Shown here one piece after another: positions 6,676 through 41,497 of a stretch of 64,000 bases of DNA. This DNA is from Thozetella sp. PMI_491 (lineage: Eukaryota; Ascomycota; Sordariomycetes; Chaetosphaeriales; Chaetosphaeriaceae). The notes below the pieces were generated by a model. It did no database searches. It saw only the letters and a program-made list of their open reading frames with translations, and was not told where the DNA came from. The stretch covers positions 1,178,001 through 1,242,000 of the forward strand of contig MU270023.1 of assembly GCA_021432635.1 (NCBI GenBank), given 5' to 3'. Positions within the stretch are counted from its first letter, which is position 1; every line of letters begins with the position of its first letter. The translations under genes were made by a program, and so were the position numbers.

Positions 6676-7126
6676 TAGTCACAGCCTTGGGATTCCGCCA
6701 TGGATCTTATTGCATGGAGCCTATCGACAGAGTATTCATTTTTATCGCGTTTCCGGTGCTTTCTGTCTCTTCTGTATCTTGCAGTTCTGCTGTAAATTTC
6801 GAGGCGGCCACGTGTCAGCCAAAGAGTGGTGTTCTTCTCGAGGTGGCGTAGGCGACATGGGGTAACGGTGACATTAGCCCCCAATGAAGGAACAGGGGGT
6901 TGGGCCAGCAAGGCCGGGCAACAATGTGTACAATTTGCCGTCAGCAATGTTTCAGGCAGGCTGCCAGAGCCTTTGGCTTTGGGGGCAGCACATCCACAAA
7001 GGCAATACGAAGCGCCTGTCGTAGCCTAATCCCCAGCCTGCTTCTTGTTACGCCACCAAACATCCCTCCCTCCATGACACTCATCAGACAGCCAATCTTG
7101 CCCGCCGAACTCAAACACTTCCAATC
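6676..7126. other. upstream region of the caspase-like gene
   Basis: These 451 bases hold the 3' region of the small gene and the promoter of the caspase-like gene. I see no convincing TATA box and no further gene. The open frames here on both strands are short and match nothing. Confidence 0.5.
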
Positions 7127-9175
7127 ATGGGAGAAGAGAATACTATCCCCAATCATCACGCGCTTCTCATTGGTGTTAATTTTTACCCCGACGAAGAGCC
7201 GCTGAAAGGTTCCGTGAATGACACGAACGAGATTAAGGACTATCTAACCAGGACACGGGCTGGGATCGACGTCCAGCTCCTCACTGCAAGCTCTGCAGAC
7301 GCGAAATGCCTTACCGAACGCCCAGAAGACCTGGCGACCCACGATAATGTAGTGGCCGGCCTTGACAGCATAATTTCGAAGGCTTTGCCGGGAGATCTCG
7401 TCTATATACACTTTTCCGGCCATGGCATCCTTCTTAACCCTAAAACCCAATTTTCGAACGGCTCGACGGGCGACCTTGCCTTAGCTCTCCTACACAGGAC
7501 GGGGGAAGCAGTAACCGTTCGCTATCTTCGCGGCTCCGAGTTGGCATCCCGGCTTAAGGCCATGGTATCCGAGGGGCTGTTAGTTACGGTAGTGCTGGAC
7601 TGCTGCTTCTCTGGAGGTGTGATGCGCAAGGATGATAACTCAATCCGCTCTCTCCCTTGGAGTTCCTACATCGATGCGGCATATCCTTCCATGGTGGACA
7701 AATATTTTGGTTCATGGGACACAGCTCCCGAAGACCGTAATCGCGGTGCTTCCATGGATATAAACTGGATGGTAAATCCTGATAGCTACTGTGTCCTCGC
7801 CGCCTGTGGACCTACAGAAACCGCGAAGGAGATGGTAAGCGAGGGGCAGCATCATGGTGTGCTGTCCTACTATTTGCTCAAGGAGCTTCGCAAACGTGGC
7901 GGCGTTGGAGGAAGGCTGCACCATATCTATGCGCATCTACGTGCCACCTTCCTGAAGCAATGCCCGCAGCAACGCCCGATGCTCTATGGCAACAAAAATC
8001 TCTGCTTCTTTTTCGAAAACAGCAGTAGCGGGTTCGATACAGCCCCAATCCCCGTCTCCCAAAGCCGGCGAAGCAGCAGCACGCTTCAGTTAGAAGCTGG
8101 CCAGGCCCATGGAGTCCGCGATGGAGACAAGTTCTCACTATGGGTCTCTGAGACCTCTAACCCTAATCTTTTGGGCGACAGGGGCCCGATCATATCTAGA
8201 GTTAGCCGTGCTGGCGCTCTCCGTTCAGATCTAGAGATCCTAGACCCCAAACCTGGCGATAACATGTCAGGGGCCACAGCTACGGCAAACACCCATCTCG
8301 CGCTTCGGAACTATTCTATAAGGCTTGATCTTAGGCTAGATTGCCGCGATGCGTGGAAAGATGTGCTGCAAGACTGGCCTTCGCTCGATGTGCAGTTTAT
8401 AGAAGACACAATCCCAGAAGCTAAATTCGCATTTTACCTTACTATTCTCGACAAGGACAACTACCAAATTCAAGACGAGTCGAAACAGATCATCCCCGGC
8501 CTGCCAGCTCTTCCTTACAGCCTGCAAGAAAATGCGGGCTTTGTGCTAGATATAGCACAGCACCTGGCTAGATTCAAGTTGCTGAAGGAGACTACCAATT
8601 TGTCTTCATTTGGAGATCTATTTAATGTCAAACTTCGAAACATGACATCAGGCGAGATATACAGCCCTGGGTGCATACAGAACGGTCAATTGCAGCCCGG
8701 GTGTTCACACCTTAGTTGCTATGCCAAGGCTCGCCACGGCGATGTCTTGAAGTTGTCGCTCTCCAAGACAAAAGAACTGGAAGAGAGCGACCTTGCCCAA
8801 CGGAACCTCTTTGTTCATGCATATGTCATGGGTTCCGGCTGGGAGATAGATAACTTGCTCCACGCAGATTTTGCCGTTATTCCGCCAGCTAAGTTCGGTG
8901 AAAGCAGGCACTTTCGCGCGGGAGCCCCTGGCAGCTGGGAGAAAAGAATCAAGTTGACCGTTCCACAATATCTAAGGGACAGGGGCCAGCTCTACTGCGA
9001 CGACATTGTCAAGATATTTATCACCTTAGAAAGTACTTCGTTCATGTCGCTAGAGCTGCCGAAAATTAGCCATTTGCATAGGCGGCACAAGAGCAATCCT
9101 GATCGACCGCTCGTTGAGAATTATCCGGATGATAGATGGGCAGTATTGAGCTTCCATATTCGTACGTCTGTATAG
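7127..9175 (+). CDS. caspase-like (peptidase C14) protein
   Basis: A single-exon gene of 682 residues whose ATG follows a C-rich leader (CCAATCATGG). Residues 10-250 form a caspase/metacaspase-type domain: HALLIGVNFYPDEEPLKGSV strand and loop, the catalytic histidine in YIHFSGHG (His99), and the catalytic cysteine in VVLDCCFSGG (Cys160 by analogy with D-x-C-x-S-G). Both residues of the dyad are present, so the enzyme could be active. A later strand carries YCVLAACGPTETAKE and a SYYLLKEL helix, as in metacaspases. Residues of about 320-680 form a second region with GVRDGDKFSLWV, rich in predicted strands, with no recognised family. It has neither the Pro/Gln-rich prodomain nor the zinc finger of classical fungal metacaspases, so it belongs to the broader C14 set found in accessory loci. 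It lies tandem with a TPR-CHAT gene. Confidence 0.9.
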   Translation: MGEENTIPNHHALLIGVNFYPDEEPLKGSVNDTNEIKDYLTRTRAGIDVQLLTASSADAKCLTERPEDLATHDNVVAGLDSIISKALPGDLVYIHFSGHGILLNPKTQFSNGSTGDLALALLHRTGEAVTVRYLRGSELASRLKAMVSEGLLVTVVLDCCFSGGVMRKDDNSIRSLPWSSYIDAAYPSMVDKYFGSWDTAPEDRNRGASMDINWMVNPDSYCVLAACGPTETAKEMVSEGQHHGVLSYYLLKELRKRGGVGGRLHHIYAHLRATFLKQCPQQRPMLYGNKNLCFFFENSSSGFDTAPIPVSQSRRSSSTLQLEAGQAHGVRDGDKFSLWVSETSNPNLLGDRGPIISRVSRAGALRSDLEILDPKPGDNMSGATATANTHLALRNYSIRLDLRLDCRDAWKDVLQDWPSLDVQFIEDTIPEAKFAFYLTILDKDNYQIQDESKQIIPGLPALPYSLQENAGFVLDIAQHLARFKLLKETTNLSSFGDLFNVKLRNMTSGEIYSPGCIQNGQLQPGCSHLSCYAKARHGDVLKLSLSKTKELEESDLAQRNLFVHAYVMGSGWEIDNLLHADFAVIPPAKFGESRHFRAGAPGSWEKRIKLTVPQYLRDRGQLYCDDIVKIFITLESTSFMSLELPKISHLHRRHKSNPDRPLVENYPDDRWAVLSFHIRTSV

Positions 9176-9846
9176 CGGGGGATGTGTTTGAATCTAGATC
9201 TCAATGAACCATTTGCGAGAGTGAAGTTCTACATGCGATTAGCTTGGACCTAGATTGGCGGCAGCACGTAGAGTGTGTTAGAGGAGATTGGCTATGCGAT
9301 AGTACTTTAGAGTGGTGTCTAAGTATTTTCAAGTTTTTTGCTTTATCTATGTTTCAGCTGGCGTCCTAGGCTACTATAGTCGAGCTGTTTAAGATACAGC
9401 TTGAGTTTGTAGAGTACTTGTGATTGGGTTTGTTATGCTGGGCTTATACCTCAAATGAGAGGAATTGTTATTATTGTTTCCCCGGCGTCATCCATGCCAA
9501 ACCTTTGCCTGCGCCCATTTCTTCGAAAACAACTGCCAACTTGACGACCGGCTACTTGACCGCCAGCCAAGATCGTTTGCAACGCCTGCCGTTCCTACCT
9601 CGGCGGATTTGAATTATTGCCCCGAAAGTGGGGCGGCGCCTTGAAGTAGGGTCACTAATACGTTTAACTGGTCAGGATGCCACGAAACCTGCATGCGTAG
9701 AAAATATTGGTAGGCTGTACTGTGTACAGCTCAACAGTGGTACGGCTCTCTCCTATAAATCCACCTCGCCCCTAGAGAGCACCAAACCCATTCCAGCCTC
9801 GAACCCACTCTTGCCACTCGTAAATGCCCAAACGCGCTACAATAAA
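9176..9846. other. upstream region of the TPR-CHAT gene
   Basis: The open frame of the next gene extends back to a stop at 9610-9612, but it contains no ATG before 9847. The translated leader is not TPR-like, and a TATAAA lies near 9753. I read 9613-9846 as promoter and leader rather than coding. An upstream exon cannot be excluded. I see no other gene. Confidence 0.5.
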
Positions 9847-12447
9847 ATGCCGAGGTTCTTTGCAGCAATTCGGGATGCCATTGAAAATTATGGATTGGCA
9901 TATCTCTACACTTACACAGAATATGGAGACGAGTCGACACTCGCACTGGCTGTCAGGCAACATCAAGAGAAACTCGATGCTACACCAGAAGGCCACCCAG
10001 AACTCGCACGTCGGTTGCACGATCTGGGAACTGGATATTACAAGTTGTATCAACGGCTAGGAGCTATGGAACACCTACGGGAATGCATCGAACAACACGA
10101 AAAGGCGATTGGTATAGATCCAAGCGACCCCTCCAATCTGGGAATTCATCAATCTCTCGGAAAGGCCTATCTTGAAGTGTATCGAAAATTGGGGAACGTA
10201 AGATACCTCGATATGGCAATGCGATACCTCAAAGAAGGGCTTAACACAATGCCGGATAGCCATCCGAACCGTGCCGACACACTTCAGGCTCTTGGAGCTG
10301 GTTATATCGAGAGATACCGGAGGACAGCAGTTGACGAAGACTTGAAGATAGCCATAGAACGACTCAAAGAAAGTCTCAATCAAGTGTCAGATAGCCCTCT
10401 TGGCCGGGCAGATCGAGCCTCGTCCCTCGGAGAAGCGTATCTTGAGCGGTATCAAAGGACAATGTCCGAAGAAGACCTAAATACGGCCATCAAACTACTC
10501 GAGAAAGGCTACATCGCCCAGGGCAATGATACATACGACTTCCTAGGCTTGAAATCCAGAGCTGAGCCCCTCGGAGCGGCATACCTCGAGCGATACCGAA
10601 GGAAAACGGCGAAAAAGGACATAGAGATGGCCATCCGAAGATACCAAGAAGCTCTCAGCCATACGCCGTGGACTGATCCAAAGCGAGCACGTCGATCGCA
10701 AGCCCTGGGAGGTGCATACCTCGAGAGGTACCAACGAAGAGGAGCGAGGGCAGACCTAAAGAACGCAATCTATCACTATGAGGATGCCGTTCGACAGTTC
10801 CATGCGCCTACTCTTGACCGTGTACAGGCCGGTAAAGTCCTAGTCCGACTGTATGACAAAGTCCAAAGTTCAACGTTGCAATACTCCCTGCAAGCTGTGT
10901 TGTTGATTCCTCTGCTCGCGCCCCACGGAATCGATATTTCAGATAAGCAGCACCTACTCGTGAAAGTGGCTGGCCTAGCTTCTGACACGGCAGCAGCTGC
11001 TTTGACGGCAAAATTTTCACCGTATAAAGCCATCGAACTTCTTGAGACTGGTCGTGGGATTATTGCAAGCTCCTTGAGCGAACAGCGGTTCGATCTGTCC
11101 GATCTACAGCAGAAACACCCTCAGTTGGCGGAGGAATACACAAATCTTCGGGATATGGTAGTCATGAGATGGTCGGAGAGTTTGCAGCGCGAAAAGATGC
11201 TCACCAGGGAACTGGAGGATACAATCCAAAAGATTCGCTCCTTCCCTGGGTTTGGCCAGTTTCTCATGATCCCGTCCGAGGACGAACTAAAAGTCACCAC
11301 AGCTTTCGGGCCGATCGTCATCATCAACACGAGCGATGACCGTTGCGATGCGCTTATCATAGAGGAAGGGGGGATTACAGGCTTGCGGCTTCCTGATTTG
11401 CACAATAGCGATATTCGGGCTCGCGCGGTGGCTATAACGGGATTACAATCCCTCAACACGCAACTTTTGGAGTGGCTCTGGGACACGATTGCGAAGCCAG
11501 TTCTTGACGTGTTAGGTTTCACCCAGACACCCTCCGGAACCTGGCCTCGTATATGGTGGATTCCAACTGGGCTCCTTACCAAGTTTCCCATTCATGCGGC
11601 AGGGTACCACGGTTCTTCGAATACGCTCTTAGACCGTGCTATCTCGTCCTACAGCTCCTCTATTCGAGCTCTTGTGCAAAGCCGTGAGAAGTGTCGCTCG
11701 GTAGTGGGAGGCCAAGATTCCGAGAAGGTGCTTCTAGTCGGCGTGGAACAGACCCCAGGGCATAGGAGGCTTCCATATGCGCCTAAAGAGATTAACAGCC
11801 TAGAGCGCCTTTTTGGATCCATGCAGTTACAGGTTATAAGGCCCAAGCCATGCCAGAAGGAAATCCTGTCTGCTTTGAAGGACTGCAAACTTTTCCACTT
11901 CGCCGGCCACGGGTCCACAAACCAGCTAGATCCATCGAAGAGCTCCTTGCTCTTACACGACGGACAGCTCACGGTGGGAAGCCTCTTCAAGAATAACTTG
12001 CGTAGTGGCGCGCCATTCCTCGCCTACCTTTCCGCTTGCGGAACAGGACAAGTCACTCACGATCAGCTAACCGATGAGTCGGTTCATTTGATCAGCGCCT
12101 ACCAGCTCGCCGGTTTTCGCCACGTCGTTGGCACTTTATGGGACGTGAACGATAAGTTCTGCGCGGAAACGGCCGTTGCCGTATACGAGTGGATGAAATG
12201 CCATGGCATGAACGACAAATCCGTTAGCGAAGGCCTTCATTATGCGATCAGGACATTCCGTGACAAGTGGGTTTCGGAAAACATGAACGAGCCATCTAAT
12301 CGCACTCGGAGTGTTGGAAATAGAGAGGGCATGCCGGCTGCGGAGCAATCGCGCTCCAATCAGTCTATAGAGAGGGATCCGAGAAATGTCGAAGTACTTG
12401 AAGACACGCCGCTATATTGGGTACCTTATGTTCATTTTGGAACCTAA
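9847..12447 (+). CDS. TPR-CHAT protease
   Basis: One exon, 866 residues from the first in-frame ATG (AAAATGCC context). Residues of about 50-330 are six tandem TPR units of roughly 48-50 residues, each marked by a variant of LG-x-AYLERYRR followed by DL-x-x-AI. A helical spacer follows. The C-terminal CHAT domain (about 480-866) carries PRIWWIPTGLLTKFPIHAAG, the histidine motif FHFAGHGSTN (His688) and the cysteine motif YLSACGTGQ (Cys731), then GFRHVVGTLWDVND. CHAT means 'caspase HetF associated with TPRs'; the domain is a clan CD cysteine protease related to separase and caspases, and the catalytic dyad is intact here. The TPRs probably bind a partner or trigger. The last residues, PLYWVPYVHFG, match the end of the convergent giant protein. 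The stop lies 198 bases from the stop of that gene. Substrate unknown. Confidence 0.9.
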   Translation: MPRFFAAIRDAIENYGLAYLYTYTEYGDESTLALAVRQHQEKLDATPEGHPELARRLHDLGTGYYKLYQRLGAMEHLRECIEQHEKAIGIDPSDPSNLGIHQSLGKAYLEVYRKLGNVRYLDMAMRYLKEGLNTMPDSHPNRADTLQALGAGYIERYRRTAVDEDLKIAIERLKESLNQVSDSPLGRADRASSLGEAYLERYQRTMSEEDLNTAIKLLEKGYIAQGNDTYDFLGLKSRAEPLGAAYLERYRRKTAKKDIEMAIRRYQEALSHTPWTDPKRARRSQALGGAYLERYQRRGARADLKNAIYHYEDAVRQFHAPTLDRVQAGKVLVRLYDKVQSSTLQYSLQAVLLIPLLAPHGIDISDKQHLLVKVAGLASDTAAAALTAKFSPYKAIELLETGRGIIASSLSEQRFDLSDLQQKHPQLAEEYTNLRDMVVMRWSESLQREKMLTRELEDTIQKIRSFPGFGQFLMIPSEDELKVTTAFGPIVIINTSDDRCDALIIEEGGITGLRLPDLHNSDIRARAVAITGLQSLNTQLLEWLWDTIAKPVLDVLGFTQTPSGTWPRIWWIPTGLLTKFPIHAAGYHGSSNTLLDRAISSYSSSIRALVQSREKCRSVVGGQDSEKVLLVGVEQTPGHRRLPYAPKEINSLERLFGSMQLQVIRPKPCQKEILSALKDCKLFHFAGHGSTNQLDPSKSSLLLHDGQLTVGSLFKNNLRSGAPFLAYLSACGTGQVTHDQLTDESVHLISAYQLAGFRHVVGTLWDVNDKFCAETAVAVYEWMKCHGMNDKSVSEGLHYAIRTFRDKWVSENMNEPSNRTRSVGNREGMPAAEQSRSNQSIERDPRNVEVLEDTPLYWVPYVHFGT

Positions 12448-12645: not shown

Positions 12646-15600
12646 TTACACGCCGAAATGAACATAAGGAACCCAATAAAGAGGCTCGTTCTCGCACAAC
12701 GCAACATCTCTTGCATTCCTCTGGCCTCTTGGCCCCAATATACTCACACCACCATCGTCACTGTCGCTATCGTCATCTGAACAGAGATTTCCCTCGTTAT
12801 TGTCGTCGGGTATCTTATAATCGCCAACATCCTGCTCAATACTCGACGCGGAATCTTGATGACAACTGGCTGGCGAGCTGTACTGCGCTCTGTCATCTTC
12901 GAAGAATGAACGCCTCTCCGCCAGCTCAGCCCCGAAATGCTTCACCAGTTGCGGAATCTTTGATATAGTCTCCATCACACGTTTTCGATGGTCAGGGCTA
13001 ATCAGCGCTGCCATTTCTTTATCCCAGTCCACATAATCACCTTCGTCTGACTCGTAGGTTTCTAACCAGCGATCGCGGAGCCGCTTCACCGCGCGGTGCA
13101 GTCCCCGGCAGACCGCTTCGTCCGCCAGTCCACTCTCTGCGCGCGCGAGCTCCTCGTAAGTAAACCTCGCCACGTCCAGGCACGACCTGTCGTTGACCGT
13201 CCACAGTGTTCCGATGACGTGCCTGAACCCGGCAATCTGACAGGCACTGATAAGGTGGATACTGTCGTCCATAAGGACTTCTTGGCGATCCTCGGTACCC
13301 TGGATCTCCCCTGTACTGCAGGCTGACAGATAGGCGAGAAAAGGTGCCTTCTCGCAGAGGTTCTGTTCGAATAACGAGCCAACCGTCAAGGGATCCTCCT
13401 CCCAGTCGTTGAGGAGAAGGCAACTCTCGGACGGATCTTTGTCGTTAGTTTTGCCGTGCCCGGCGAAGTGGAAGATGGCACACCCGGGAAGCAGAGAGAG
13501 AAGCTCGGATTTTTTTCGCTTTAACGATTGAATATTGGTGACTTTCATAGACATGGACTCGCACAGCCCTTTGACGGAGTTTACCTCTCCCACAGCGAAA
13601 GGAAGCGCTCCAGAACCAGAAAGTCCTGGGGTGGAGTCCATGGCAACGAGAATCGCATGAAGTGGCGCATCGGACCTGCTCCTCGCGAGATGGCCCAAGG
13701 CGCGGCGTCGACCGTTTACGATCGCCTTGACCGACGAACTGTAAGATGACATAACCCAGTCCATGACCGTTTCAGTCGAACCTGGGGCATGGTGACCAGC
13801 GGCATGTAAAGGAAACTTGGAAAGAATCCCTGTTGGAATCCACCAGACATGTGGGTACGACTCGCCGTCTAACGGTGGTCCTGTGAATCCTAGAGATATG
13901 AGTATAGGCTTCATCATGACGTCCCACAACCTTCGGAGAACAGCTGGCCTTGTAATGCCCATCTCCACTAGTCTCTTCAGGTGGGGAGGTCTTATACGTG
14001 CTAAGTAGAGAGGTCGAATCCGAGTTTTCTCAATAATGAGCGCGTAACATGATATTATGCCGACGTTGATTACGACGATTGGACCATTAGCTGCCGCTAG
14101 CTTCATCTGGGTCTCGCTCGGGGCCGAGAGGAAGTTTTCAAATCCATCACGACTGCGGATCTCGGCGATCAAGTCATCAAACTCCGTTCCCGTATGGTAA
14201 CGCGCCTGCATTTCGCCGCGTAAGCGGGTAGCACTTGGTACAGAAGGCTGGTCGAGTAGTTCGCGGAGTTGAGTAAAACGATCTGCAAGCTCGGGATGAA
14301 AAGACTGCAATTCACGCAGGTCACTGCGCAGTTCTTCGAAGGAGGTCGAAAGCAGCCCTCGTGCCTGTTCCAAGAATCTGATGGCAGTGGCTGCTGTCTT
14401 ACCGGCCCGTACCGCTAACTCTGCCGCAAGCGGGCCAAGACTTGGACGACTGGGCGTGTACGATTTAAATCCGCCGCCCTTGTGACGACTTTCCAGCACG
14501 TGAGAAGAAACGGCGAGCCGTGGGATGAATCCGATCATTGCCTCTGCCGCCTCGTAAGCCCCTTCGCTGTTATTTGCCATCATCTCGAGCTTGATCAGCA
14601 TTTCGCCGAAGGCCATGACACCGGAGGCGTGATTGTTTCCAGGCTTCTTCAGGAGCTTCATCGCGCGCCAACAGGAGGCAACGGCTTTCTCCCGATATGA
14701 CTCGTCATAATCAGTATTCCAGATGTGGAAGAATATGAGCCCTAGCAGCATTTGATATCCTTCGTGTTGTTCCAAGTCCGACATCGGTACGGTAGCAAGT
14801 GATTCCCCTTCGCGCTTGTTCGCACGTATCCATTCTCCACTGCCGCATAGATCATACAGAGCGAGGTAGGCCCTTTCGTAGTTCGGGTCCTGTACGTGCA
14901 CAAGCCCTTCTAATTGAAGCTGAAGCGCAGGATTCCACCCGAACCTCGCCCTGTGTTCGTAGACCAAAGAAAGCCAGCTAGATATAATGAAATTTCGGTC
15001 GCCACCGTTTGCGGCAGCGATTAGTGCTTGCTTCATCGACCGCATTCCTTCCTCTTCGCTGTATCTATAAAGTGTCTTTGCATGAGCGAAGGCGTTTCTA
15101 TAATTCTGATCAAATCCTTGGTCAGATAGAGATCGAATTTCGTTTCGCAGAAACCGGATCACATCCTCTCGTGCATCTGAACCCTTCGATAAACCAGCTG
15201 TTTCGGGTGGGATTGAGTCGAGAATGACCTCAAAATCGCCCCAAAGCTCTGGCAATCCCAGGTCCTGTTCGGGAGCCAACTCGATGGCTTCACACGTTAG
15301 TTTGAGGGCTTGGTTGAGATCGTCATCGACAGCGAATCTCTGAAAACGGTGGAACAAGAGAGGCCCAAGATGCGCCAAGATGCGAGACCTTGGAGCTGTG
15401 TCGACCGATGTCGCCAAGAGTTCCTCTAATAAGTCAATAGCTTCGTCTAGATCTCCCCTCGAATGCTTATCTTGGTAACGCTGGCCAAGTAAGTTAGCAA
15501 GCCTCCAAGAAAACTCAAATCGGTCGTTGGAAAAACGGTCGGGAATAATTGAGATGAGCTCTCGACCGATATCGATGGCTCTCGACAAATCGGATCTATC

Positions 15601-18600
15601 ATAAGTTCTTGATTTCCTGGAGATGACCGAGTCCCTCTTCCCTATAGCCTGGTAGAGGTAAGCCAAGACCAATGCCCGTCTGTCCGATTTCTCTGGCGTC
15701 AAATCGGCGGCTTTTTGGAGGCACCGAATAGCTTCATCGATATCGGGCATCGTGTTTGACTTCATGGACGGGATCAACAGGTAGAGTCCGAGCGTAAAAT
15801 AGGAGCGTACGTGGTTCGGATCGCCTGGCATTGATTGCTCGAGCTCATCTCGGGCGCGCTGGATGTCTTCGTCCTCATCATCGCCAAAGGGGACCCATCG
15901 TAGGTGTCTGCCGAAGACATACCAGCAGTCACCTCCGGGGTGATCATCATCGGTTTCATTACCGAATGTAAACCAATTTTCCGGGTCGTTGAGGTGTTCT
16001 TCGACCTCTCGAACGGAGCCTTGGTCGGTCGACTTTGCACCACTCCAGAAGCTCGTCCATGGTAGGTTTCTAGAAGCAAAGTCGCGCGCTCGTTGTCCGA
16101 AGGTAAACCAAGATTCGTTGTTTTCCGTGTGGTTAGCTGGAGGCGGTTCAGATTGCTGCTGGGCATCATGAGCGTCATCGTCAACATTCTGATTATGAGT
16201 CTGATCGCTCGTGTTTGCAAAGGACCAATAGTCGCTTTCTGAGAAGTAATCAGTGGCCTGTTAAGATAAAGAATGGACTCGTGTTTTCAAGCACCTTCAG
16301 GGCGAGCAAAGATGGCAGGTTCGACTTCAGTAGCCCAGTCCCGCTTTCTCCACACACCAGTATTCGCAACCAGTCCTCCAATATCGTCTTGTGTAGTCCT
16401 ATGGCCGCGAGTTGAAGCAAATGGCGAGGCTGTTCTCGCGCAACGCAAGTCACCCTCGGAAAGCGATCGCTTAATCGCTGGGAACTGGTCTCTACCCAGA
16501 CGTGGCCTACTTTTTAATAGATCAGTGAGCAGTTTGAGCGCCTTGGCACGTTGGCCATTCCTGAACATGACTTCGGCATGGTGCGACAGGACCTGATAAT
16601 TGCCGGTGATACAGAAGAGTAGGTTTTCGTCGAATTTGGGAAGTTCCTCAGTGGTATTGCCGTCACTTTGCTCTAATAGCGATGCGGCGCTAGAGGAGTC
16701 TCCGGTCGGATCACCTTCTTTTGCTAGGAACTCGCAAAGCAGTCGCATCCCCCTGGCTTCCTTGAGCAACGGGTGCTTATCAACTATGCGGCCGTCAGCC
16801 TTGACGTCTTCTGCTAATGCCTGTTCCGCTCGCGAGAAGTTGATCGCAGCAGAGGCAAACAATCTCTTCCCAAAATCCATGGATCCGCGCAAGCGGTGCA
16901 GCGGTGCGCTTCTAGACGAAAAGTGCATGAAGGGGTCGGCCATAAGCAGCATTTCCTCCACGGCCTCGACGTCTAATAGCATATTTGGGGAAACGACTGG
17001 GAGCTTGGCTAGGGCAACTGCTGTCTCAACTAGCATGTGTCGCACCAGGAGTTGCTGGGGTATCAACATGGGTGAAAATGATCCCCAATCTGAGATCTCG
17101 AGCTCCGTACAGGAGGGTCCGCAGCCACCCCCACTGCCTGTGTCAGTGACAGACGTGATAGAGAAGGTCTTGGCGTCGCAATAGTGTTGAATCGAAGTCA
17201 AGATCCATGACAGCGTTTCCGTCATCTGTGCCAGCAAAGCCGGTGGGGAGTCGCTGAAAGTTGTGTCTAGCACACGGGCCTCCAGGAAATGAAGGTGGTA
17301 TCGGAGAACGTTGAAAACCCCCCAGCGAGGAAAGCCGGAGCGGAAGGCGACGGTTTCCCTACGTTTACCTCGAGCCTTTTCGGAAAGATCTGAGATCCCA
17401 TGATCATGTCGAAAGTGCCACAAAATATAACCACCGTCGAGCAGATTGCGCGCAGCAGTCCACGCTGGTCGTAGCTCGGTCGGCAAGTTACGCCCTCCGC
17501 AGGTAGCCAGGCCTCTGGGATGATTCGTGATTCTTGTAGTAAGCCAGTTGCCAAAGTAGTGGCTCGGAAGTATTCGTGTCATGTAACGGGAGAGCTCGCC
17601 AGTGGACAGAAAGTCCCATCTATGTGGGGACGACGTCGATGCTGTGATGTCTCGGCTCAGAACTGCCAGGAGCACGTCAGCTCTGAATTCAATGCTCCTT
17701 AGCTTCTTCTGCTTCGCGATAATTCTTCCAAACGTGTTCTGAGCCTCGGAGACCATGCCGCTTCGTGCTTGACACCACCCGAGCATCATTTCGACGTGCC
17801 AGATTGCCATTCCAGTCACATTTGCATCCCCTCGATCAACCTGTTGGTTGACAGTAGAGATGAGATCTTCCAGTCGGCTACAGGCGAGTACCCAGCGGCC
17901 CTTGCGCATTAGGAGTTCGATGCGGAGGTCGCTGTTCCTGACAGCTGCCGACTGGTTTGGCAATGAAATGCCTCGTCCGAGGACGTAAATATCCTCCAAA
18001 GCATGTTTTGGCCATTCGATAAAAACATCGGGCGGCCTGGTTCGCCCGCGAAGGTGTGATCGTTGCCGTGGCAGAGGTTCATCGTCGCCGAGCTCGCGCA
18101 GTGCCAATTGGCATACTCTCGCAATCCACCAAGCAGATGCACCCTCAAATCGCTCTTCCAAAACCTGCTGGATAATGCCCCCTACATGCTGGCGCTTCCC
18201 ACTGCTTTGGTAGGGTATATCACGACAACCATTTGATTCCTCGAAGAAGCTATCCGTCAGGATCTTCGCAAGGGCCTTGATCTCTTCATGGTCTGCGCTC
18301 ACGACGAAAGAAAACACACCAAGGAGTGCAGCTAGCGTCTTGTAGTTGGCCAAGTCTCTCCTCTCCAGTTCGTTGAGAAGGAGAACCAATTCTTCCTGGG
18401 AACTACACCAACTTTCGAAATTGGCCACATCGCCATCGGTCATCATCCAACCCAAAGACACAATGTTGTCTGATAATCTCTTGACGACCGATTTCCAGTG
18501 ATAATTACCCAAGGCTTCGCCAGCCGCACCAGATATAACGCGCCCCAAGAGGCGAAGGGCGAACGTCGCATCACACCGCATACTGTATCGTTGCATTGGA

Positions 18601-21600
18601 GGCAGATTGGAGTAGATATCGTCCAAACCGGGGAAAGGGTCGTTCGATTGTAGAAGCTTGCCGAGAAACTCCACTAGTCCGGCGTGCTCAAAGGATGGCA
18701 TAGCGAAAAATTGGTGAGTGTTAGGCATCAGCCGACTGAAGCATTCTTGAGCCTCTACATTACCGTCCATGTTGATCATTTTCGAAGCCAGGATAACGAA
18801 AGATATGAAAACTAGTCGCAGCTCGTTGGCGTCAGAATCATAATGAGATGGAAGTGTAGGATTTGGTTGAAACAGGTTGAAGGGGTTGGTAAGAAATGGA
18901 GCGATGGGATTTTGCATCGACGCTTGCTGTAATGACTCGCTTGTTTGGTTGAACAGCCATTTCGTTGATAACATCAGCGATGGAAACAAAAGGCCGCGAT
19001 TCGGGCCGAGAGGCCGGCGGTGTTGAGTCGCAGGCTTGCGGTTCTGGAGAGGGGACTTGCTCTCTTTCGGATTAGGGCTACTTTCTAGACCAGAGCTTTT
19101 ACGGTTCTGAAGACCATGTTCTTGTTCTTGCCTCAGTGGTCTCTGATGTGGAGAATGTGGTCTGCGATGCGCAAGGGGCGATTCATGGGTGGAGTTCCCA
19201 CGGCCGTTTGTTTTCGGCACGATTTCTGGAGCAACGAACTCATTGATGGCGATCGATACAAGCTGTACAAACTTGTCCATGCGACTCACTTCTCGGCCCC
19301 AGTCATCATTGGTCATGTCTCCATCTGACTGAAGCGAAAGCCGATCCGTTAAGGCGCACCACTTGGTCCTAGCGGTCTCGAGTGCAGTGCGCGATACACC
19401 AAGGAGTTTCAACAGAGGCTTCGCCGACTTTTGGGTTCGGCTTAGGCAATCAGGAAACGACAATAGCAGTCCTAAGGCGGCCACTAGCATTGCTTCCCTG
19501 CCCAAATACTGCAGCTGGTTCTTCTCCCATTTTCTCCCGAATGCTGCCGATCGAGGTTCGGGAAAAGCTGCGGCCGACAGTATCTCCTTTTGTTGGAAGG
19601 TACTGATAAAGGCTTTCAGTGCCGGGATCGAGCTTTCATGGGCGGCGAGAAGAGACTGCACTCCCCTGGATGCGCCTAACTCTTCCAAGGTCACATTCTC
19701 GTCCCCGGCCTGGCTTGCTTCATCCAGCCTTGAGATACTATGTACGATCTTCTCCCACAGAGCGTCGTGTTGGTCCCTCTTCTCTACCCAGCCGAGTCTC
19801 TCTTTGGCGTGCGATTTGATTGCGCGAAAGAGTCTCGGCGAGGTAGCTACAAGGTCATCTTTTCCTGTTATCTTGCGGAGGAATTCAATACTTGCTCCAA
19901 GATGGCCTGGAGAAAATAACTTTCCAGGAGAGTGAATGGGGGACATGCTGTGGCGTTTCTCCAAATCCACAAACTCCAGGATTGCCCTCAGCATCGTCGG
20001 GTCAAACCACCACATATCCACAATCTCGCGAAGAATTTCGTCAGGAAGATAGTCCAGGGCAAGCTCAATCATACGAGCGTTCCCATGGAAGAGCACCTGC
20101 CCAAGAGGCCACGCGTTATCCACGGTAGGGTGGACGTTCTTGAACAAATCAAATAAGGTCCTAGCAATGCATTGATGATTCCGAGAACCTGCATCCGATA
20201 ATGGTGAAGAAGTTGTTATAAGCAGGAAGTAGTCCAAGAGACAGAGACAAGGTGATGTGGCCTCGAAAGCCTCGCTGGGCGTCATCAATCTTTCAACTGG
20301 CAAGGCGTGACCTTCTCTGACTGGCTTCGAGTATCTGACAAGAGCGATAAAATCACGGAGTAGACACGGCCCGTCGGTGATAGCCTCATCGACAATACGA
20401 GCAGCGAAAGAGAAATCAATGTCGAGATAAGCAACAAGAACCGCGGCGGACCTGCGGTCGTGTCGCTTGAGGGCGGCCGCAAGAGTGTCGAGGTTTGGCC
20501 TGAAGCCATGTGCAAGAAGCCACCTGAGGCCTCTCTTCCTGGCTCTCACGCTCTCCTGATCAGAGGACAGGAGGTTGCTGAAGAGCTTTGAGTTGATTTC
20601 ATCGCTTCGCACACATGTCTGTCTCATCGCATCTGACAAATGCCACCAGTTCTCGACTAGGAGCTTGGGTTCGTGGTTGCCGAAGATCTCTAGGCACCCC
20701 ACTCTATCCACTGTTCCCAGAAGGTCTTTCCATTCGTCAAGTACCGGTAGAATGTCCCTGTTTCGCGACCTCAAAGCTCGGCCGTAAACTTTGCCCGGCG
20801 GGGTGCCCTTCGAGCTCAGAGCATCAAAGAAGTGCTGGAAGATGAACTCGAAAAGATCTTTCAGCTGCTTAACGTTCTCAGAACCGTGCCATGCGATTCT
20901 ATCCTCCGGGCTAGCGTCCAGAGCGAGCACGAGAAGTTCCCATGGATCTACCGACGCCTTTGTCTCCGAACTAAGCGCTTCGTAGATGTCCTCATACGCA
21001 ACCTGATATCGTACCGAACGCTCTAAAGCTACTCGAGCGAAGTGGTTTGCAGTTTCTCTTTTCAAAGAAATCGGATCCTCTTTAAGGAGATGGATGACAA
21101 GACCCCTCTGGCGAGACGACAGAGCTTGCAGGACCATAGGAGCCCTATTGACGATTTGGATGTAGTTATTCTTTGGAGCCGATTCTATATCGGGTCTCGG
21201 ACTAGGTGGGCTTTCCAGTTGCAAGATATGAGACATGGATGAGCCTATCCCACGAAGCGTCTCATAACCCTCGGCGACATCACTGAGTCCATCGGCGATT
21301 TCGCTGGTAAGCTCAGGGCTCAGAAAATTGCTCCCACGGAAGCCTTCCACAAATTCAGTTAGCCTGCTGGATCTTGATGGGGTTCGCTGCCCTGTGTTGT
21401 GAAGGCCTTCAAGAAGACGAGAAAGTATTCGGATAAGGTTAAGCACGATTTCGCTTGTGGGTCGAGCTCTTAGCGTGTAGAAGCCTTGAACAAGCTGATT
21501 TAGAACATAGAGAAAGTGGAAAGTGCGTCCTCCCATGTGCTGAATATCGCGAAATCTATTGAGGCTTTCGAAAAGCTCGTTTAGTCTGCTGGGTATGTGA

Positions 21601-23474
21601 GAGGTCCCTTCCCTTGTTGGTTGGCTGTCTTGAAACCTAACAAGGCCCTGGAGGAGCTCGCGCAGCGGATTGGGCACTCGAGGCGTAGAATCTTCTGTAC
21701 GGTGAAGATACCGGCGATTCAGTTCGGCGACGGCGACAGAGGTGGACGGTTGGTTATGGGGTATCTCGAGATACCGTTCGTCGACCTGCTCTCTCGCTTC
21801 CAGGTATGCCAAAAGCTGGCTCAGCGTTTCCGACACGACTTGCCCTCCAGGCTGTAACAGCTCCCGAAATTGTTCATAAAGATTCCTGACGGTTGGCTGA
21901 AGATTCCAGTTGTTTTCCAGCAGAGCAATTATCATCAGTTGCTCAGTGGCAGTCTGTCGCAAGGATGTGTTCATCGATGCGCCGAGACGGGCGATATGGA
22001 TATCAAATAAGGCTAGGGAGGCTTCTCGGGCAATTATGCCGGTACCGAGTGAGTTCTGTTGCGCAGCAGCTTTTACCAGATGCTGCAAGAAATCACATAC
22101 TCGGCCAAACCAGCTTGTCGGGATGAAGCTAGAGCTGCCGGCCGCCTGGCTTCGGAGAAGTGAGATGGCCTGCACGGGGATGGTTAGCGGAACACATGGG
22201 CAGTGAAATCTTCCGGGTCATACCGTGTAGAGTCTTAGTAGGTTGGCTGTGCCATGCGCCGTCTCGTTCCGAATGGGACTTCCTTACGTTAGGCGAGACA
22301 TGCAAAGGCTTCACAGTCAACTAGGGACTCACAACTCAAAGCATTCTCCCTGCAAAATCGGCTTCGCGCCTGGTGTATCATCCGTATGCAAGACTAGAAG
22401 ACTCAGATTCGTCATTGGCGGGTCTTTATCGATCGTGTTGGGAGGCTCCCGGCTACCGAATGCGACTTTTGCTTTCGATAGAGATCGCGCGTCAGGGTCA
22501 AACAAACAAAGATGAGAAATTGCCTGCTCAAACTCAGTGTACCGCCCGTGATGCCCTACTAGTTTCAGCGATTCTCCTATCAGCTTCCCAAGTTTATCAC
22601 TTGGGTCAGACTTGAGATTCGTCACTTCCTCAAGCATCTCTGAGGTGAGCGATCTGAGGTCCTGGTCACCGCTTTGGATGGTCGCGCGTATCCAGTGAGT
22701 CTCGGACGACGATTGCTTGCCAAATGCTGAGGCGAAGTAACTGCTGAGGAACGGATTTGACCAACGCACACACACCGCCCAACAGAGCAGGCCGAAAGAG
22801 TAAAGATCAGAGCTCGTCATGTTATTGCTGGAGAAAAGTTCAGGCGCGTCACTCCAGCGAGACTGTCCGAGTCTTCGACGACTGTCGTCGGCGAATGAAA
22901 CACATCCGAAATTGGCCAGCTTTGCTGTAAATTGACGCCGACGGTCGTGGCCTTGATTTGGAAAGAGAAGGACATTATCCCCGTGTAAGTCGTTGTGTGC
23001 GATGCCGTTCTCATGAAAGACCGAGAGGGCTTCTGCCACGTCGATGCAAATGTGCAGGGCATCATAATCAGTGATGGTCTTCCTTGCTGTCAGATGACTT
23101 GACAAGGCGCCAATGTCCGACTGTTCATAGACAAGCCTCGGTATTTCCTCCGGTAAAACCGCATCCCATAGAACATGTCGAGCTCGAATTATGAAACTGC
23201 TACTCCTGATAGTAGAGATGGAAAGTACACGGAACTCTGACGTGGCTTGCTCCCATGGGTCAGCAGCCAAGCTTCCGGGCTGTCGTTGAGCTCGGTTATT
23301 TGCCACAGCTCCTTCGCGTATGATGCTCGAATCAGTCTGCCTAATGTAAGTCCAAATGAGAAATCTGCAAGTATCCGGGTGGTCGAGCTGGAACAAATCG
23401 CCGTTTGAACCGTAAGAAAACCGCTCGCGAACACCAACTAGTCCGCCCGAATTCGAAGTGAGTTGGGGATCCAT
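12646..23474 (-). CDS. giant kinase-like/solenoid/TPR-CHAT protein
   Basis: Four exons join in phase to about 3,554 residues: 23474-22333, 22278-22224, 22169-16295 and 16238-12646. The introns are 54, 54 and 56 bases, the first two with CTAAC branch sites. Residues 1-380: kinase-like, with HNDLHGDN (160-167), NFG instead of DFG (188-190), APE (210-212) and DLYSFG, but no visible glycine loop or VAIK lysine. Residues 400-2357: long, mostly helical, unrecognised, with a 40-residue degenerate repeat near its start and a Pro/Gln/Arg-rich patch midway. Residues 2358-2493: acidic linker with W-x-x-F-G repeats. Then come TPRs and a CHAT protease with FHFAGHGKTN (His3285) and YLSACSTGE (Cys3331), ending PLYWVPYVHFGV. 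A better-scoring donor (GTGTGT) upstream of 16295 would shorten the protein by 21 residues. A 68-base intron may lie in the 5' leader (23542-23475). Separate kinase-like and CHAT genes are the alternative, but the CHAT segment is open back to its acceptor. Confidence 0.75.
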
Positions 23475-25598: not shown

Positions 25599-27272
25599 CT
25601 ACTTGAAAGAGACCAGCACACCGTGCCGATTGTTAAGACTAATGCCAAGCTTCTCTGTCCATGCTCTCGAGTCAGTGCTTTCAATTGAGTTGAAGGATTG
25701 CACCATACGTATAGCAACATATGAAGCCATTGCCAAGGCCAGATGCTCTACAAATCGATGTTAGTAAACCTGTCTAAGGTTAGGCTCACGTGGCAACTTA
25801 CGTCCTGGGCAGACCCTTGGGCCCGGCTGAAAGGGAATGTAGCCGGGGGCATCCCTCTTAACGTTCGCCCATCGATCCGGGCGAAACGCTTCGGGGTCGG
25901 GCCCAAATATATCAGTATTACGGTGGGATTCCCAAGCCCAAAATGACACGGCTTGCCCTTTTCGTATCAATATGCTTGACATACCATCCTTGCCGCCACC
26001 CCTAGGAAGCCAGGTGTCCTTATTCGCAGTCTTGGCATTGAACGGATTGGTAGGTAACACGCGCAGAGCTGCTCTACCAGGTCAGTTACATTGCTTTGCT
26101 TTTCTACACACCAACGGAGTATTGATGCTGGGAGCTGGGCAGCGACCGCTCTCATCAGGTAGGAAGAACTTGCCTTCATTGAAGATGTACTGGAGCCGTG
26201 CGATGCTTCTCAGGTCGTCGTATATCGGCGGGTCTGAACCGAAGGCAAGCTGGACCTCGGATTTCAGTGCATCGAACTCCTGGGGGTGTTTTGCCAAGAA
26301 CCAGAAGGTGGAAGACAAAAGACTGGTCACTGAGTCGGTGCCCGCTAGATATACGGTAATGGCCTGGTCTCGAACGCTCTCGAAGCCGTGCCCGTCCTGG
26401 ACTGCTTTCGTCACGAAAGACGTGCCAGGACGCTTCTTGTCGGCCTCGCCAGGCTCCTCGGCGCTCTTTTGCATCGCCTCCCTGACGAAGCCGCCAATGT
26501 AGTTCCGTACCAAAGCCGACGCTTTGTGAAATTGTGCTCGGTTATATAGCCAAGACCCCGGGCCCGACTGGCCGAAGCGTGCGATTCTCTCCTTGACATA
26601 TCGAATGGCCTCCATCACCTCCACTTCTTCTGGCTTCTGCGCAAGTGAAAGAGGCCCCGGCGAGCTCCCGATAGCAAAGACGGAGAGCCAGTCTGTGGTA
26701 AGGGCAAAGAATAGTTCTTGTATGTCCACCGTTCTGGTGCCGCCTCTGGGGATTTGAGCTAGCAGCAGCTGGAACTGTCGCTCTAGCGATTCCAGATCCA
26801 AGACGGAGCGGAGATCAGTGAGCTGGGTGCGAAACATCTTTCTGGCCGTGCGCCATGGCGCGCCGTCCATCCTGAGGATCCCGTGTGGCGTGACGGGGAG
26901 GAACAGAGGATGCCGCAGAGGGGCGACATCGAAGTCGTCGAATTGCCCTTGGAGGATGTGCTTGATATTCTCGGGATCGCACGTCACCACGATCTCCAGC
27001 CATAGCACCCTGGAGATGAATGTGTTTCCGTGACGGTGAAAGAGGTCAGAGAAGTAGGGGAGAATGTTGCGACGTTGAAATTGTTTGACCAGTTCTATGG
27101 GTTTCAAGAGACTCCCGTGGAGCCAAGAATTCTCGTACACCGGTCGTTGGCAGCCATGCTGGGCAATCACGCTTCGCTGGCGATAGAATCTCCCTATCGC
27201 CTGGAAGATCAACGCGAGGCCCCCAATGCACGCAGCTAAGAGGAGCAAATGGTTGTAGATGATGGTAAGCAT
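25599..27272 (-). CDS. cytochrome P450, CYP52-like
   Basis: Three exons, 27272-26174, 26068-25802 and 25747-25599, give 504 residues. Intron 1 (105 bases) has a GC donor (GCAAGT) with an AACTGACC branch site; intron 2 is 54 bases. The product starts with a membrane anchor (MLTIIYNHLLLLAACIGG). It then shows the I-helix YLAGTDSVTSL, the ExxR of the K helix in NEALRVLP, which intron 1 interrupts, the PERF-like FRPDRWAN, and the heme-binding FQPGPRVCPG, cut by intron 2. The end, NRHGVLVSFK, fits the family. The pattern (long first exon, PRGGG before the beta region) resembles CYP52/CYP539-type alkane or fatty-acid hydroxylases of the endoplasmic reticulum. Beside a squalene-hopene cyclase it more likely oxidises the cyclised triterpene. 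It is transcribed away from the cyclase from a shared 823-base region. All key residues are present. Confidence 0.88.
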
Positions 27273-28095
27273 ACTGGCGTCTCTGGGTGCTAGATTGCAA
27301 AACGTACGACGTCCTCTACCGTTAAACCTGGAAAGAGGCGATGCGTTCCCTCGGTGCACACCAGAGCGACGCGGTTAAAATTCTCCAGCTAGCATCGTGG
27401 GTTGAGCAGATGCGAAGAGGTGGAGAGAAATGAGACTCCAGCACTACGCTGACCACATGAGTACGGGATTTTGTGCTGCCTATTCGGGAAAAACTGCCAT
27501 CAGCACGTGGCTTATACTACGTCCTACTACCCTAGCTCATGCACACGTAGTTTGCCAAGGCATTGTGCCTGTTTGCTGCCAAATGCTCATGGGGGCAGGT
27601 GGACTTATCTCCGCCTTCGAGCTAGGTGTGAGTACCTAGCTAATAGTTATGCAAGACTAGGAAATAAACGGGTCCGCCGTGAAGCTGACAGCAGGCTTCG
27701 ATTACGAGAACATGTAATCCTGTCGATATTTCCCTGATCGGGAAATCCGTGCATTCTTGGCAGCAAGTAATCTTTATATGGTGCTTCGGCCTTCGCAGAG
27801 AAGTTGGTGCCCTGCTGCGGGGACATGTTAATACCGAGGGTGACTCCCGGAAACGGAGCATGACTGAGCTCTAGTGAATACCACCCTACGAGACGAATCC
27901 GACAGCCTAGCAGCAGTTGCACAGTCCCCCGAGTGACCGACGCTTCCTAGACCTAAAACTATTATCGAGGATGCTCCTCGTGCGTGACTTGGCATTCAGT
28001 CTGTACCTATCATATAATTCCCCAGCACAGCTTGTCTTCGGTCCTCAGTCTATACTAAGCTCTTTCCTGCGTCCAAATCGTCTGTGCCTTCAAAT
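27273..28095. promoter_or_regulatory. divergent promoter region, P450 and hopene cyclase
   Basis: These 823 bases separate two divergent starts, so both genes probably share control elements. A CATATAAT motif near 28009-28016 stands about 80 bases before the cyclase ATG and could be its TATA element. I recognise no specific regulator site. Confidence 0.5.
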
Positions 28096-30138
28096 ATGGC
28101 GTCTGTGGGAGATGCTGGCCTGCTGGCCAATGTCTACAATGCATTGGACTTGGCTACCCAGCACGCCCGCAACCTGGTCAAATCAGATGGTCACTGGCTC
28201 GGGCCCATGTCCTCAGATGTAACCATCACGGCCGAATGGATTTTTCTCATCCAATCCCTCAACCTGCCTGTCTCCGTGACAGACCGCCAAGCGTATCGAC
28301 ACCACTTTCTCTCATCGCAGCAGCCCGACGGCTCGTGGGCCATTGCCCCTAGATATCCACATGGCGGCAATCTCTCCGCGACTATCGAGGCTTACCTTGC
28401 CCTCAAGATACTCGGCCTTCCTATCCAAGATCCGGCTATGACCAAGGCTCGTGCCTACGTTCTGGCGCAGGGTGGGGTGGAGAAGATGAGAATATTCACA
28501 CGTTTTCACCTGGCGATGTTTGGCCTGCTCCCCTGGGCCGCCGTTCCGCAGATGCCCCCGGAATTGATCCTCCTCCCCTCATGGTTCCCCATTAATATGT
28601 TCCGCTTCTCTTCGTGGGCTCGTATTACCATCGTGCCTTTCCTCGTCATCCGCACCAGAGAACCCATCTACGCTTTGCCCAACGGCCGCCACGTGCAGAA
28701 TGATTTCCTGGACGAGCTTTGGTGTAATTCAGAGAGGAAGCTGGTCCCATATACTGAGAGCTTCTTGAAGCTAGCAACGAATAATCCGGTGGCTCTGCTG
28801 TTCCAGATAGCCGACTTTCTCATCTGGCTTCTCTGTCTAGTCCAGTTCGTTCCGCTACGGGCTTGGGCCCTGCGGCGGTGTGTAGACTGGCTCAAGACGC
28901 GGCAAGAGGATTCGGGCGACTGGGCGGGCATCTTCCCTCCCATGCACCTCTCGATCTATGCGCTCCTCCTCGAGGGCCACACGCTCGAAGACGATGCGGT
29001 GCGCCGAGGGCTAGGGGCCCTCAATCGTTTCTGCTACCAGACGGAGGAGCAGGGACGGTGGATGCAACCCTGCGTCTCGCCCGTGTGGGATACGTTCCTC
29101 ATGGTGCGCGGTCTCTTGGATGCCCGAACCGTCGAAACAGACGACGAACTGCTCACGCGGGGGCTGGAGTGGACCGTGGCGAGACAAATCACCACGCGCG
29201 TCGGCGACTGGCACGTCCGTTGCCCCACGGGGATTCCCGGCGGCTTCAGCTTCGAGTACTCCAACACGTGGTATCCCGACGTCGACGACACGGCTGCCGG
29301 AATCCTCTCGTTCATCAAACAAGACCCCAATTCACTCACATCCAGCCACGTCCTCCGGGCGGCGGCTTGGGTTCTTAAGATGCAGAACCGGGATGGCGGC
29401 TGGGCAGCCTTCGACGTAGACAATGACGCCCTATTTCTCAACTCGATCCCCTTTTCCGATATGGACGCTCTTTGCGATCCCTCCTCAGCGGATATCGTCG
29501 GCCGAGTGCTCGAGGCATTTAGCCTGATGCTAGAGGTCAGTTCTCGCAACCAGAAGGCAAAGTTCAGATCTGGGCCGAGCGAGGTACTCCTAGCGGCCCT
29601 TTTGGAAGCGTCTAACCGTGGTATCACCTACTTGGAGGCCACACAAGAGCCAGCCGGGGCCTGGTATGGTCGGTGGGGTGCCAACTACATCTACGGCACG
29701 AGCAACGTGCTCTGTGGTCTCATGTACTTTACCAAGCAGCCGCGCGTGAAGAAAATGGTGTCTTCAGCCTTGCGCTGGCTGGAGTCGGTACAGAATGAGG
29801 ACGGCGGCTGGGGCGAGGGTCTAGACTCCTACATCGACAGCACGAAAGGGGGTATTGGGCCGTCGACCCCTTCGCAGACAGCTTGGGCGCTGATGGCTCT
29901 TCTTGCGCACCTGCCTGCCGACACCCCGGCGATTACTAATGGTATTCAGTGGCTCGTATCCTCTCAGGTTGATTCGTCTCGCGGAGCAGCGGGAGAGAAA
30001 CCGGCAGCCACTTGGAAGGAGGACGTATATACGGGCACCGGGTTCCCGGGTCACTTCTACCTCGGTTATGCCCTGTACAGCCATTACTTTCCCCTCATGG
30101 CCCTTGGTCGCTACGCAAGGGCCACATGCCCAGTTTAG
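28096..30138 (+). CDS. squalene-hopene cyclase
   Basis: A single-exon gene of 680 residues from the ATG at 28096; the frame extends four codons upstream but without an ATG. Class II terpene cyclases of this family protonate squalene and fold it into hopene or related pentacyclic triterpenes at the membrane. The acid motif is present as DVDDTA (395-400), matching D-x-D-D-T-A of bacterial squalene-hopene cyclases rather than the DCTAE of oxidosqualene cyclases. Several QW repeats are seen, such as QQPDGSW, QNRDGGWAAF, QEPAGAWYGRWG and QNEDGGWGEG. The length is near that of bacterial enzymes. Fungal squalene-hopene cyclases are thought to derive from bacteria, and one makes the fumihopaside skeleton in Aspergillus fumigatus. 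The flanking P450 genes make a tailored triterpenoid product likely. No defect is seen. Confidence 0.95.
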   Translation: MASVGDAGLLANVYNALDLATQHARNLVKSDGHWLGPMSSDVTITAEWIFLIQSLNLPVSVTDRQAYRHHFLSSQQPDGSWAIAPRYPHGGNLSATIEAYLALKILGLPIQDPAMTKARAYVLAQGGVEKMRIFTRFHLAMFGLLPWAAVPQMPPELILLPSWFPINMFRFSSWARITIVPFLVIRTREPIYALPNGRHVQNDFLDELWCNSERKLVPYTESFLKLATNNPVALLFQIADFLIWLLCLVQFVPLRAWALRRCVDWLKTRQEDSGDWAGIFPPMHLSIYALLLEGHTLEDDAVRRGLGALNRFCYQTEEQGRWMQPCVSPVWDTFLMVRGLLDARTVETDDELLTRGLEWTVARQITTRVGDWHVRCPTGIPGGFSFEYSNTWYPDVDDTAAGILSFIKQDPNSLTSSHVLRAAAWVLKMQNRDGGWAAFDVDNDALFLNSIPFSDMDALCDPSSADIVGRVLEAFSLMLEVSSRNQKAKFRSGPSEVLLAALLEASNRGITYLEATQEPAGAWYGRWGANYIYGTSNVLCGLMYFTKQPRVKKMVSSALRWLESVQNEDGGWGEGLDSYIDSTKGGIGPSTPSQTAWALMALLAHLPADTPAITNGIQWLVSSQVDSSRGAAGEKPAATWKEDVYTGTGFPGHFYLGYALYSHYFPLMALGRYARATCPV

Positions 30139-40800: not shown

Positions 40801-41357
40801 TGTTAATATGTGACCCACTATTAAATATAGATCCTAAATATATATTATAAAACGCACGGGCCACATACCTCTAGGGCAGGCAAGAAAGCCCTATACTTAT
40901 AAAAGATCCACGCAAGTAAAAATAACCACACGCCTCAAAGCATCCACGATTCCACACAACGGCCACCTCCTATACAAAACAGCCATACCACATAAAAACG
41001 CTAAAAACAGACTAAAATATACGCTAAGCCCTTTTAATATATATCTACTAGTAAGGGTATAAAACGCGTAAGAAGATGAAGCGTTTTAAATACAAGCGAG
41101 TGTTTTATACGCTGGTCTTTACGAGTATACTAATATGGTAAAAGATGGGCCATCTTAATATGGTAATTAGTGGGGCTATATAGTCTATATATACGTAGCT
41201 TTGCTCCCTGATTTAAATCTTGGATCTTTATCCTTTTACACACATACACTCATACACTTACACTTCCACCCTAAAAGATCCGCTGGCTGGACCCACTTTT
41301 CATGTGTATTCCACTGCTTACGTCATTAAAATTGATTATTTATCATACCTTTTAACA
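40801..41357 (+). repeat. 5' LTR of the Copia element
   Basis: Begins TGTTAATATGTGACC and ends TTTTAACA. It aligns throughout with 49961-50520; the 3' copy is richer in T and A, mostly by transitions. Confidence 0.92.
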
Positions 41358-41390
41358 GGTTATGAGCCTGGAGCTCTAGCCTTTTATATA

Positions 41391-41497
41391 TAACCCTATC
41401 CCTAACCCTTACTTTAAGAGGGTATAACTTAACTAAACCAAGCCCGATTCTATCCGTTCCTCAAGCTATGATATACCCTAACCCTAACCCTAACCCT
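41391..41497 (+). repeat. telomere-like CCCTAA repeats
   Basis: Three full CCCTAA units plus CCCT stand at 41476-41497, and an imperfect pair (AACCCTATCCCTAACCCT) at 41392-41409. They lie just downstream of the 5' LTR of the Copia element, near where its first open frame begins. They are interstitial, not a chromosome end. Confidence 0.85.

Follow-up and report, generated by a model that had tools for sequence, protein, structure and literature searches.

Fungal CHAT proteases have been associated with heterokaryon incompatibility and with the activation of gasdermins, and fusions of protease domains with repeats or kinase-like domains are reported (PMC10197012, PMC12881547, PMC11138114). One of these papers, a review, calls the activators of the diverse putative fungal cell-death sensors a major open question (PMC12881547). 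Here we analyzed a stretch of 64,000 nucleotides (nt) of Thozetella sp. PMI_491 (assembly GCA_021432635.1, contig MU270023.1, positions 1,178,001 to 1,242,000), referred to below as the window, which on its minus strand carries a gene predicted to encode a single protein of 3,554 residues (the giant). In this protein, a kinase-like head is followed by a very long middle part and by a TPR-CHAT protease. Among its closest known counterparts are fungal NLR-like or fused receptors with a CHAT or S8 protease, which likewise combine a protease with repeats or kinase-like domains as sensor and effector (PMC10197012 and PMC12881547); in contrast to fungal NLRs, the giant had no Pfam match to NACHT or NB-ARC in exons 1, 3, and 4 at E ≤ 1. 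The gasdermin-partner protease of Podospora anserina and the CHAT allele of hetB in Aspergillus fumigatus are likened to it from published descriptions. Because of the published roles of fungal CHAT proteases and the known fusions of proteases with kinase-like domains, we consider it most likely, with a probability of roughly 55%, that the giant is a self-contained sensor-protease that serves in allorecognition or in regulated death of the fungal cell.

The initial annotation had joined four open segments on one strand at three introns of 54 to 56 bases with matching phases. We located these segments on the minus strand between 23474 and 12646 as claimed; they spliced in frame to 10,665 nt, giving 3,554 residues plus a stop codon and no internal stops, with a weak donor at intron 3. 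The parts of the gene are as follows.

22333..23474, minus strand: exon 1, kinase-like head (residues 1-380 plus part of 381)
22279..22332, minus strand: intron 1, 54 nt, GTGAGT..AG
22224..22278, minus strand: exon 2, a micro-exon of 55 nt
22170..22223, minus strand: intron 2, 54 nt, GTATGA..CAG
16295..22169, minus strand: exon 3, orphan and probably mostly helical middle, ending at about residue 2357 (helicity from low-confidence models)
16239..16294, minus strand: intron 3, 56 nt, weak GTGCTT donor, TTCTCAG acceptor, alternative in-phase donor at 16357
12646..16238, minus strand: exon 4, linker, TPR region, and CHAT protease, through the stop

Judged by their consensus-like donors, introns 1 and 2 are convincing, and both show by eye a CTAAC branch-like sequence close to the 3' end. 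Skipping of the micro-exon would break the frame, because 55 nt is not divisible by three. GTGCTT is a weak donor by the fungal consensus; despite this, intron 3 is likely real. Seven in-phase donor/acceptor pairs of 45 to 130 nt were present in this region, the 56-nt pair being the shortest. A better-looking donor (GTGTGT at 16357) with the same acceptor would yield an in-phase intron of 119 nt and a protein of 3,533 residues, and both donors carry the frame on into the CHAT exon.

The weak donor leaves room for two genes, namely one for a kinase-like/orphan protein that terminates at the TGA at 16287 and, directly downstream, another for a TPR-CHAT protease. Such an arrangement would fit with the first Met of the last open reading frame (ORF), residue 2494, which lies close to the start of the TPR region, and with the nine other Pfam-scanned CHAT ORFs of the genome, which are preceded by TPRs or by nothing recognized. 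However, fewer than 30 nt separate the two ORFs, which can be joined through two different in-phase donors and one common acceptor. No stop interrupts the 143 codons of the last ORF that precede its first Met, a length that stayed open in only 0.16% of mononucleotide shuffles, and alignments to TPR-CHAT proteins begin upstream of that Met, at residues 2424-2483; this ORF therefore has no credible start of its own, which for this segment upholds the initial annotation. The codon score over the 143 codons was 25.6 bits, compared to 19.9 and 17.0 for two other frames. This excess is just modest, which also leaves the two-gene arrangement some room, so codon use backs the exon 3/exon 4 junction weakly and is no proof of it by itself. 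Overall, the sequence indicates that the giant is very probably one real single gene, and two separate genes are unlikely.

The following features were assigned to the C-terminal part.

15883..16110, minus strand: four W-[FYV]-x-F-G motifs, residues 2401-2476, just past the last exon junction and before the TPRs
14431..15882, minus strand: TPR region, about residues 2477-2960, from alignments to TPR-CHAT proteins
13090..13944, minus strand: CHAT protease domain, Pfam match
13458-13456, minus strand: codon of the catalytic His3285
13320-13318, minus strand: codon of the catalytic Cys3331

The CHAT domain (PF12770) exceeded its cut-off of 24 bits with a score of 94.5 bits (E = 1e-26). Of 27 alignments with 26 CHAT proteins, all 27 keep the catalytic His and 26 the Cys, and the giant has both. 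The TPRs predicted initially were upheld by the alignment of the region as a whole to TPR-CHAT arrays, though single repeats scored under the Pfam cut-offs; in profile comparisons, the region reached 96% against a TPR-CHAT alignment and 64% against the protein P0007. By its residues, the C-terminus is an intact-looking TPR-CHAT protease of the fungal type, with which it shares the TPR array and the C-terminal CHAT domain with its His/Cys dyad. The giant differs from these proteases by about 2,350 additional N-terminal residues, which comprise the kinase-like head and the orphan middle. A search of the PDB sequences with the TPR-CHAT exon gave no match at E ≤ 1. The four W-[FYV]-x-F-G motifs had a spacing-45 score of 46, compared to 43 for the best of 300 shuffles, and may represent a short interaction motif; none of the other compared proteins (P0001-P0030) had the stricter version W[FY]xFG. 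One of the compared proteins (P0008, Xylaria arbuscula, 2428 residues) consists of two tandem TPR-CHAT halves and is either a true double protease or the product of genes joined by annotation.

A TPR-CHAT plan is also known from Csx29 (Craspase), to which the giant gave a weak match in NCBIfam (E = 0.0085; its score of 15 bits compares with a cut-off of 300); in contrast to Csx29, the giant is fungal, lacks a CRISPR context, and is far larger. Separase, in turn, has a long helical body with a caspase-fold protease at its C-terminus, and the overall plan of the giant resembles it. The giant might thus serve in housekeeping, as a separase-like or another protease unconnected to cell death, a view to which the Peptidase_C50 model lends something: the neighboring TPR-CHAT gene exceeded its cut-off (32.4 versus 27.8 bits), and matches at E ≤ 0.01 were obtained for three of seven scanned relatives in the genome, one of them (L046) over the cut-off. 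The giant itself, however, differs from separase in having no Pfam match to Peptidase_C50 at E ≤ 1, its CHAT match is clear, its middle is a single-copy orphan, and genes for C14 and CHAT proteases adjoin it. We therefore regard a separase-like function as highly improbable.

The kinase-like nature of the head was backed by a Pfam Pkinase match over residues 75-249 (about 23252-22728; E = 1e-15), and a PDB sequence search matched it to many kinases, with 502 sequences at E ≤ 0.01 (best, 5.8e-9). Within the genome, the head matched eight further loci at E ≤ 0.001 (L019-L026), its nearest kin there with 30-37% identity. At all eight, ankyrin-repeat sequence follows the kinase on the same strand (by Pfam at seven loci and by a custom ankyrin profile at L026), and at two (L021 and L022) both lie within one ORF. 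As read by eye from one alignment, the VAIK-type lysine and HxD[LIV]K are present in all eight relatives and the subsequent Asn in seven, and the DFG-type aspartate was found in all seven that are readable at this point, the eighth being split there. These loci make up a kinase-ankyrin family with at least eight members in this genome, in which the kinase motifs are mostly intact. They differ from the giant in their ankyrin repeats, in the retention of most catalytic residues, and in the absence of CHAT within the 8.5-9.5 kb examined per locus.

At the same positions, the head of the giant reads HNDLH, with the Asn kept, the catalytic-loop lysine replaced by His, and NFG in place of DFG; moreover, no lysine occurs anywhere before residue 132. 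Among the residues that mark active kinases, the HxD aspartate is thus kept, and the DFG aspartate and the beta-3 lysine are absent. Because of NFG, the missing catalytic-loop lysine, and the lysine-free stretch before residue 132, the head is most likely a pseudokinase. The Pkinase match of 1e-15, the kept Asp and Asn of the catalytic loop, and the mostly intact-looking relatives would also suit an active kinase that phosphorylates a partner, with the CHAT end as a regulatory or secondary output; against the residues that are lost, we consider this improbable. The PADLOC models of defense systems matched the head over its kinase region (best, mad6, 3.2e-16), which we read as general kinase similarity and not as a defense-system identity; these models gave no match for the sequences P0002 and P0003.

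Between the head and the TPR-CHAT end lie about 1,975 residues (about 382-2357), which the initial annotation had described as a long unrecognized region. Among 7,985 scored candidates of the protein database, for which sharing of an exact five-residue word was required, no relative of the middle appeared at E ≤ 1; the PDB sequence search gave no match at this threshold, no second copy was present in the genome, and no Pfam domain exceeded its cut-off, with just TPR_6 at 20.1 bits and MCD at 14.1 bits. When five segments of the middle were compared as profiles with 17 targets (ankyrin, TPR, and C14 proteins), no probability rose above 1%, and the controls in this comparison were the TPR region with its 96% and 64% and a kinase at 96%. 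An ankyrin nature of the middle was rejected: its best score with an ankyrin profile, for which the repeats came from this genome and from a single database protein, was -3.6 bits, compared to shuffles reaching 1.8, and there was no Pfam ankyrin match at E ≤ 1, which places the giant outside the kinase-ankyrin family. Two weak matches of the middle were dropped, one of residues 1088-1298 to an ankyrin ORF (blastp, E = 0.27) and one over 27 residues just upstream of the CHAT ORF at L042 (E = 1.0). Two stretches stood out within the middle.

21267..21701, minus strand: stretch of 27-residue repeats, scored over residues 556 to about 609 and followed by eye to about 700
19032..19214, minus strand: basic linker rich in His, Arg, Pro, and Gln, probably disordered, about residues 1385-1445, internal repeat score 45

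For the first of these, the score at offset 27 was 55, compared to 39 for the best of 100 shuffles. A middle without relatives in the searches made, together with the stops present in some other CHAT copies of the genome, could also point to a functionless gene that is decaying or that arose by chance fusion. The open frame of more than 3,500 codons and the retained CHAT dyad argue against this explanation, to which we give little credence.

How unusual this architecture is was judged from several searches, which covered long annotated proteins and the CHAT places of the genome other than two fragmentary ones (C40 and C42); its apparent rarity holds within this scope. A CHAT query against proteins of about 1,955-6,220 residues, scoring just the 2,085 candidates with the most shared words, found 24 long CHAT proteins from elsewhere. 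At their CHAT ends, 20 of them are 38-45% and the other four 29-36% identical to the giant. None of the 24 has an annotated kinase domain, and a C14 caspase domain is annotated in three. Neither head nor middle matched any of the 11 other CHAT stretches of the genome (9.5 kb each) with an E-value below 1.0; these stretches include the nine Pfam-scanned ORFs mentioned above. In a literature search that covered mostly papers outside subscription, no paper joined CHAT and a protein kinase domain in a fungal domain architecture and none treated fungal Peptidase C14 together with CHAT and TPR; ankyrin, protein kinase, and CHAT protease in fungi led to the review PMC12881547 alone. That review already presents the general idea of a cell-death sensor in which a fungal caspase-like protease is fused to kinase-like domains or to repeats (PMC12881547). 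The architecture had initially been taken as undescribed; its domain order is indeed absent from the 24 long CHAT proteins, but the general idea is not new. What is new here is the unusual head and the orphan middle.

Two further protease genes, which the initial annotation had not brought up for this locus, adjoin the giant.

7025..9175, plus strand: Peptidase_C14 (caspase-domain) gene, C-terminal half without assigned domain
9613..12447, plus strand: second TPR-CHAT gene (ORF), convergent with the giant, first Met at about 9847

The ends of the second TPR-CHAT gene and of the giant are about 200 nt apart. After merging of 14 CHAT and 15 C14 matches of the genome to 13 loci each, C14 was found within 10 kb at four CHAT loci (C7, C9, C11, and C132), with two C14 matches at C11. 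Random placement predicts 0.047 such pairings, and none of 200,000 trials reached four; the true significance is lower, because random placement ignores the clustering of fast-evolving genes. At a further place (C20), a stretch resembling the C-terminal half of the C14 protein of the window adjoins a broken CHAT copy, with no C14 domain listed. The three C14-bearing long CHAT proteins, including those of Fusarium pseudocircinatum and Colletotrichum fructicola, match both neighbors of the giant in the same order, although joined C14-CHAT gene models can be mis-joined; the F. pseudocircinatum protein matches residues 46-673 of the C14 protein of the window. C14 and CHAT may possibly form a two-protease system.

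Elsewhere in the window, a squalene-hopene cyclase gene (28018-30138) lies between two cytochrome P450 ORFs (26082-32939), likely as an adjoining triterpenoid cluster. An ORF with a HET domain (60347-61195) beside an ankyrin-repeat ORF (61405-62763) marks perhaps another incompatibility-type locus (59096-62763). The region 40001-52000 is rich in adenine and thymine, with 25-40% guanine plus cytosine per 2-kb step and few long open frames, like degraded repeats.

In the mechanism that we propose for the giant as a sensor-protease, the chain would be kept inactive at rest, and the pseudokinase head with the probably helical middle would serve as the recognition and switch part. Its input may be the binding of a ligand, a partner, or a foreign protein, or the docking of an upstream kinase. 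Binding would free or cluster the TPR-CHAT end, which would then cleave an effector; the first candidates are the neighboring C14 caspase-like protein and an unlinked pore-former of the gasdermin kind. The initial annotation had already suggested a sensor coupled to a protease output, and the presence of a kinase-like head, a long middle, and TPR-CHAT in one chain agrees with it, but the most likely reading of the head is a pseudokinase, with kinase-ankyrin kin in the genome.

Several observations weigh against this proposal. Residual kinase activity of the head is possible, because it keeps the catalytic-loop Asp and Asn. Two middle segments modeled from single sequences reached predicted local distance difference test scores (pLDDT) of 42.6 and 39.6 and a predicted template modeling score (pTM) of 0.28, which makes the models unusable; because the models predicting helices are too weak to trust, we infer a solenoid rather than observe one. 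A Foldseek search with the first of them found nothing at E ≤ 0.001, and the 50 matches listed, mostly generic helical repeat proteins, were not used. For the whole chain, no relative was found among 7,389 candidates: two proteins matched at E ≤ 0.001, both aligned to the TPR-CHAT end alone, and there is consequently no sign of conservation or selection of the chain as a whole. Nine of the 13 CHAT loci have no C14 match within 10 kb, and a C14 partner is therefore not the rule. The gasdermin model PF04598 matched none of the 20 scanned ORFs of the window and nothing in the genome; since it was also silent in all 14 control genomes, this search cannot exclude a nearby gasdermin. Finally, we infer the trigger, the substrate, and the outcome of the action of the giant.

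More speculatively, the pseudokinase might, via a previously unknown module of about 2,000 residues, switch the CHAT protease, which would fire the neighboring C14 protein in a three-gene caspase cascade of cell death; the pairing of C14 and CHAT recurs in the genome and is joined in the Fusarium and Colletotrichum models. We put forward this cascade tentatively, as an idea that is doubtful at present. In the giant, a module for which the searches gave no relative, and whose size makes it of interest, links a probable pseudokinase switch with a CHAT protease; the gene lies in a recurring C14-CHAT neighborhood, and its locus suggests protease-to-caspase signaling in fungi.

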